Origin: an uncultured bacterium
Lineage (GTDB): Bacteria; Patescibacteriota; Minisyncoccia; Phycocordibacterales; CAIZLB01
DNA: 33,309 nucleotides
NCBI GenBank assembly: GCA_903864515.1
Contig: CAIPFZ010000006.1
Span: 1-33,309, forward strand
Reading direction: 5' to 3'
Of the stretch, positions 18,031-18,319 are shown one piece after another; within the stretch, counting starts at the first letter, position 1, and each line of letters begins with the position of its first letter. The notes under the pieces are model-generated. The model worked only from the letters and a program-made list of their open reading frames with translations. It was not told the origin of the DNA and did no database searches. Both the position numbers and the translations under genes were made by a program.

Positions 18031-18119
18031 GGAGACGTGTCGGAGTGGTCTAACGTGCCTCTTTGCTAAAGAGGTGTGCCCTTTAAACGGCACCGAGGGT
18101 TCGAATCCCTCCGTCTCCG
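18031..18119 (+). tRNA. tRNA-Ser(GCT)
   Basis: GGAGACG/CGTCTCC acceptor, CCTCT-TTGCTAA-AGAGG anticodon arm (GCT), GTGCC-ctttaaac-GGCAC variable arm, GAGGG-TTCGAAT-CCCTC T arm, discriminator G. Confidence 0.94.
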
Positions 18120-18282
18120 CAGTGAACGAATGAAGTGAGCGAACGGAGGAGACGAGGAAACTGCTTGAGCAGTTCCGTGAGGGATGAGAAAAGTCTGAGT
18201 ATATCGTGCGAAGCCACTGAAGGTGGCGAGTGCGATACGAAGACTGTACAGGTCCTGTAAGGACCGAATCCTTCCGTCTCCG
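18120..18282 (+). repeat. tRNA-Ser-derived structured satellite downstream of tRNA-Ser(GCT)
   Basis: CGAATCCTTCCGTCTCCG (18265-18282) repeats the tRNA 3' end CGAATCCCTCCGTCTCCG (18102-18119) at 17/18 positions. GGAGACG (18148-18154) repeats the tRNA 5' acceptor strand. Internal hairpins at 18156-18176, 18213-18227 and 18251-18265. Confidence 0.75.
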
Positions 18283-18319
18283 TCAAGATAATTTAGTATC
18301 GGTGTGAATTCCAATTAAA

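Follow-up and report, generated by a model that had tools for sequence, protein, structure and literature searches.

A folded repeat behind tRNA-Ser(GCT) in an uncultured Patescibacteria genome belongs to a dispersed, previously uncatalogued family of tRNA-linked elements

The window, i.e., the whole stretch of 33,309 nucleotides that was analyzed, carries an intact tRNA-Ser(GCT) gene followed on the same strand by a folded segment in which the 3' end of the tRNA recurs in both antisense and direct orientation. The features of this locus are as follows.

18031..18120, + strand: host gene tRNA-Ser(GCT), intact (ARAGORN and Rfam RF00005)
18102..18119, + strand: tRNA target segment from T-loop C56 to the discriminator, CGAATCCCTCCGTCTCCG (direct repeat D1)
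18121..18147, + strand: linker, lacking a terminator in the Ser(GCT) copy; many relatives have one here
18148..18154, + strand: acceptor part of the left arm, GGAGACG, antisense of tRNA positions 66-72
18155..18178, + strand: hairpin 1, which splits the left arm where its acceptor and T-stem parts meet (folding; units across the family)
18179..18185, + strand: T-stem part of the left arm, GAGGGAT, antisense of the 3' T-stem strand of the tRNA
18188..18245, + strand: core hairpin P2 with internal loop GAGTA/CGAA (folding and covariation)
18246..18265, + strand: P3, GTAC-A-[GGTCCT GTA AGGACC], a covarying stem with a GTA loop
18265..18282, + strand: right arm, direct copy of the tRNA 3' end, CGAATCCTTCCGTCTCCG, 17/18

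The 3' repeat that the earlier note had described behind this tRNA was confirmed: positions 18102-18119 and 18265-18282 form a 17/18 direct repeat, a score reached in none of 5,000 dinucleotide shuffles of 18121-18300, the best of which attained 14. All of the hairpins claimed there were recovered as well (18156-18176, 18213-18227, and 18251-18265), the second one within a longer stem made of 18192-18196/18241-18245 and 18202-18206/18233-18237, and folding of 18121-18282 gave -63.4 kcal/mol (z = -6.04), equaled by 0 of 200 shuffles. The 7-mer GGAGACG at 18148-18154 proves nothing alone, since it is present in 4.8% of shuffles. Moreover, one locus cannot tell a copy of the 5' acceptor strand, as first proposed, from an antisense 3' end, and it is the comparison across the family that decides. 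The internal loop GAGTA/CGAA of P2 resembles a bulged-G (sarcin-ricin type) motif. Searches with Rfam of the window and of the element loci gave no family for the element, none of the annotation libraries used describes such elements, and a search of a phage collection returned only 21-nt tRNA matches. An 82-codon open reading frame on the minus strand (window 18066-18314), antisense to the tRNA and the element, is almost certainly no gene.

Homologues were found by BLAST in relatives, both as orthologous copies and as paralogous copies located behind other tRNAs within the same bacterial family. Using R1, a covariance model built on the core and the right-hand hairpin whose E-values are rough, we obtained matches in 13 of the 15 genomes of the source's bacterial family and in 79 of the 147 genomes, mostly draft MAGs, sampled over the order, with up to 28 copies per genome; the other 68 were without the element. 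A pattern scan of the whole GTDB returned 86 stretches, and all records naming a group in their title were Patescibacteria (Kaiserbacteria, Nomurabacteria, Taylorbacteria, Zambryskibacteria, Vogelbacteria, and other Parcubacteria), the remaining stretches being titled uncultured bacterium only. No match lay outside the order among 287 genomes sampled over the phylum under stricter filters, and a pattern search of the 2.9 million viral contigs of IMG/VR returned none. Within the open-access literature covered, where an existing description may have been missed, we found none from Patescibacteria. Altogether, 18121-18282 belongs to a family of small folded repeats that is dispersed, had not been catalogued before, and is restricted, within the samples searched, to one order of Patescibacteria.

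The nonredundant units that were compared number 119, on 19 tRNA isotypes, and two tmRNA genes also carry the element downstream. Copies lie mostly 30 to 90 nt downstream of the tRNA on the same strand, a distance spanned by the linker and the left arm. In the near-complete genome G017, where tandem units also occur, 27 of the 28 copies follow a tRNA at a distance of at most 500 nt and share its strand, and 0 lie on the opposite one. This genome, of sub-megabase size, has an element behind over half of its tRNA genes (19 of 33), in a setting where useless DNA is unexpected; in genome G027, 15 of 26 are so occupied.

The units share a constant order: tRNA, linker, antisense of the tRNA 3' end, core hairpin, P3, and a direct copy of the 3' end starting at C56. 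The right arm is 92 to 100% identical to tRNA positions 56-62 over the 119 units. In a comparison that omits units with more than three arm mismatches, the left arm agrees with the complement of the tRNA 3' strand, and not with a copy of the 5' strand, at 472 versus 8 discriminating positions of the T-stem region and at 15 versus 0 in the acceptor arms. The sequence GGAGACG is accordingly read as the reverse complement of the 3' end, contrary to the original description. Both arm junctions fall at about T-loop position 56/57, and 95 of 106 units have the hairpin at the acceptor/T-stem boundary, immediately in front of the T-stem arm. Terminator-like hairpins occupy 44 of 106 linkers, and their arms often continue into the acceptor arm. 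At three loci (L150, L151, and L172), the same kind of arms enclose a second core type (GCCGCAGCGATG...CTTGTGACC), which looks unrelated.

Base pairs covary across the family, which bears out the structured part of the structured-RNA proposal. With both homologues in relatives and covariation present, the earlier note withstood the refutation test that it had set for itself. Over 64 distinct copies, standard pairs make up 88.4% of paired cells, and 17 of 22 pairs have changed on both sides. The covariation score was 0.502, against 0.139 for shuffled alignments and at most 0.113 for slid structures, in an alignment fitted to the model and made of related copies, so that the score leans toward covariation. 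Three positions of P3 exhibit every one of the four Watson-Crick types, and its loop is GTA in 118 of 118 units; as these units were selected by a paired stem and a TGT-type loop, the percentages are partly selection, whereas the variety of pair types is not. Wobble pairs, compared with a view to RNA versus DNA, amount to 4.2% in P2, 7.4% in hairpin 1, and less than 1% in P3, against 4.3% in the tRNA acceptor control. We also considered P3 as a T-loop mimic and rejected this, the loop reading better as a triloop, GUA, with U-A or C-G as the closing pair.

Among 55 core units, one of them a duplicate assigned to a neighboring tRNA, the nearest neighbor of the core was behind another tRNA of the same genome in 30 cases (8.2 expected) and behind the same tRNA of another genome in 0 (1.2 expected). 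The Pro and Gly cores of G017, for instance, are 97% identical with different arms. Sites also differ between sister species: the convergent Val-TAC/Arg-TCT pair is filled on both sides in G003 and empty on both in G001, the Val-GAC site is filled in G002 and empty in G001, and the Met and Trp elements of G007 are absent in G008. In G005, the filled Val-TAC site has the original terminator after the right arm, and hence a copy of the tRNA 3' end stands on either side of the insert. At the Met locus (G007 versus G008), the old 3' flank seems to lie before the element, opposite to the Val locus, so that the two loci do not agree on the exact breakpoints. Some copies, at Leu-TAG and Leu-CAA, were inherited at the same tRNA in G007 and G008. 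The Leu-TAG elements of these two genomes have P3 and the right arm in common, whereas linker, hairpin 1, and core are not the same: modules are exchanged.

Cores are common within a genome, whether moved or converted, while the arms follow the target and the tRNA is spared. Given that cores are alike within a genome and never with the same tRNA elsewhere, and that sister species have empty sites, we consider it probable that a small cassette spreads from one tRNA gene to another, acquiring its arms from the target at each site; shared cores could also arise from gene conversion among old copies within a genome. The segment 18121-18282 itself is, in our judgment and with a similar degree of confidence, a tRNA-linked repeat, i.e., a noncoding cassette of ~160 nt from a multicopy family spreading among tRNA and tmRNA genes. 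Of the three options first offered for this segment, the tiny element bounded by repeats of the tRNA 3' end came closest, but its description as att-like fails as stated, since the tRNA that the arms match changes from locus to locus and the cores are common within a genome.

We propose the following course of insertion. It would be replicative, with the target being copied: a break in the T-loop would duplicate the tRNA 3' end and yield the right arm, and the antisense left arm would result from copying that folds back over this 3' end and the terminator behind it, perhaps at the hairpin of the latter. T-loop duplication and fold-back copying together would leave the entered tRNA undamaged. 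Having no gene of its own, the cassette must rely on an enzyme of the host or of a helper. Selection, or recognition by this enzyme, would maintain the stems and loops, and transcripts may arise by read-through.

The main rival to this spreading cassette is a host function of the RNA, which is possible, although we regard it as rather unlikely: a structured RNA selected by the host, transcribed with or behind the tRNA, would adopt a tRNA-like fold and act on tRNA processing or supply, perhaps via the antisense arm. The tRNA-like shape that this supposes, with an acceptor-like helix, a side hairpin, and a T-stem-like helix, is in our view equally questionable. In its favor, the fold is conserved with covariation, the GTA loop is conserved as well, the core has a bulged-G-like internal loop, and the element is always on the strand of the tRNA. 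The left arm still matches the tRNA at 74 versus 7 positions where the right arm has drifted, a count biased by the arm filter, and covariation suggests constraint on an element of which the Leu-TAG and Leu-CAA copies were inherited in place. These points are met by the terminator-like hairpin that separates tRNA and element in two-fifths of the units, by the many tRNAs, and whole genomes, that do without the element, and by its differing presence in sister species. A satellite of a tyrosine recombinase, in which the tRNA and the right arm would be attL and attR and the cassette would bring its own tRNA 3' end, appears improbable. Integrases that target tRNAs typically place the junction in the T-loop and restore the tRNA, likewise using the T-loop and 3' end and leaving the tRNA intact, and the T-loop junction, the restored tRNA, and the empty Val-TAC site all fit. 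However, such an element carries the end of one tRNA, whereas near-identical cores here bear the arms of different isotypes; instead of one fixed attachment sequence for the family, we found related cores with arms of 19 isotypes. An antisense arm is foreign to that mechanism, and the present elements differ further in having ~160 nt, no gene, and arms that vary with the target. A decayed tRNA copy, chance, or an assembly artifact, two of which the earlier note had entertained, can practically be set aside: nothing beyond the repeat itself speaks for them, homologues occur in many independent assemblies, base pairs covary, and the left arm is antisense of the 3' end and not a copy of the 5' acceptor strand. 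A guide RNA, with the right arm as guide and TTC before the target, was also considered and dropped because most P3 stems themselves end in TTC, which would leave self unspared; no nuclease was linked to the elements.

Mobilization by a known transposition enzyme, be it a Y1/REP-type transposase, a Cas1-type casposase, or a reverse transcriptase that switches template at the T-loop, also seems quite unlikely to us. REP sequences, mobilized by Y1/RAYT enzymes, are short, palindromic, nonautonomous, and dispersed, with a tetranucleotide before the hairpin, and P3 preceded by GTAC recalls them; the present elements differ in their link to tRNAs, in arms copied from the tRNA, and in not requiring Y1. 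Terminator palindromes would moreover suit self-priming. Y1 transposase is weakly associated with the presence of elements (OR 2.3, p 0.018) and was missing in 6 of 20 high-copy genomes, whereas reverse transcriptase is not associated (OR 0.8, p 0.51) and was missing in 12 of these 20. Neither was found in four genomes with 12 to 28 copies (G017, G023, G091, and G155), and Cas1 was detected in just 7 of the 147 genomes, one of these with elements. Hence, none of these three enzymes is needed. Most family 2 casposons do insert in tRNA genes, and the casposase of A. boonei duplicates 14 to 15 bp at the tRNA-Pro 3' end (PMC6614799), but the present elements have no Cas1 gene, polymerase, or fixed terminal inverted repeats, and their antisense arm comes from the target.

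The tRNA-linked repeats (TLRs) of E. coli, known since 1978, number 22 at ten loci, adjoin tRNA or rRNA genes downstream, often in tandem, and terminate in 18 to 19 bp that exactly repeat the 3' end of the RNA gene before them; most, the tRNA-linked ones among them, are without known function, their origin is unexplained, and three rRNA-linked ones are reported as small RNAs binding Hfq and CsrA (PMC8144298). Like the Patescibacteria units, the TLRs, including RtT of tyrT/tyrV (Rfam RF00391), thus combine such a direct copy with a position downstream of tRNA genes and tandem copies. In E. coli K-12, the tyrT/tyrV repeats gave four RtT matches. We observed, as a feature noted in the present analysis and not a published criterion, an inverted arm complementary to the tRNA 3' copy in the tyrT/tyrV and argV repeats (L377 and L378). 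It reads GGGGAAGGAT at tyrT/tyrV, where GAGAA comes next in the tyrV copies, and has 8 nt at argV, while argZ, argQ, and lysV showed no exact inverted arm. The plan therefore appears common to at least part of the E. coli set, a likeness by architecture and not a proven homology. The right arm starts at C56/G57 here and at about A58 in E. coli, the left arm is longer here and split by hairpin 1, core and P3 differ, and relative to genome size the Patescibacteria copies are much more abundant. The covariance models do not cross-match, which lends no support to common descent: RF00391 had no match at E ≤ 1 in five Patescibacteria element loci, and R1 did not recognize the E. coli tyrT locus (best E, 0.8). 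A mobile cassette that copies both arms, direct and antisense, from each new tRNA by means of an enzyme that is none of the usual ones might even underlie tRNA-linked repeats in distant phyla, a more tentative proposal to which we would give less than even weight. With more than 100 units, many genomes, empty sites, and target-matched arms, the nature and origin of TLRs become testable by comparison.

In G027, four loci (L160, L162, L163, and L169) have core and P3 where no tRNA is nearby, between inverted arms that differ in sequence from the usual ones, and L160 sits at the end of a reading frame. A REP-like hairpin of ~27 nt, GTAGGCGATTCTGCTGAATCG on one strand, is nested at different positions in two elements, namely, in the P3 loop of the Val-TAC element of G003 (L070) and in the P2 loop of L004 in G005. 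A tRNA with anticodon CTA, labeled Pyl by ARAGORN, has an element behind it in a Patescibacteria MAG (L201). Finally, L167 of G027 carries a group I intron (Rfam RF00028) beside a tRNA-like 3' end with an element downstream and is apparently a tRNA gene with a group I intron.
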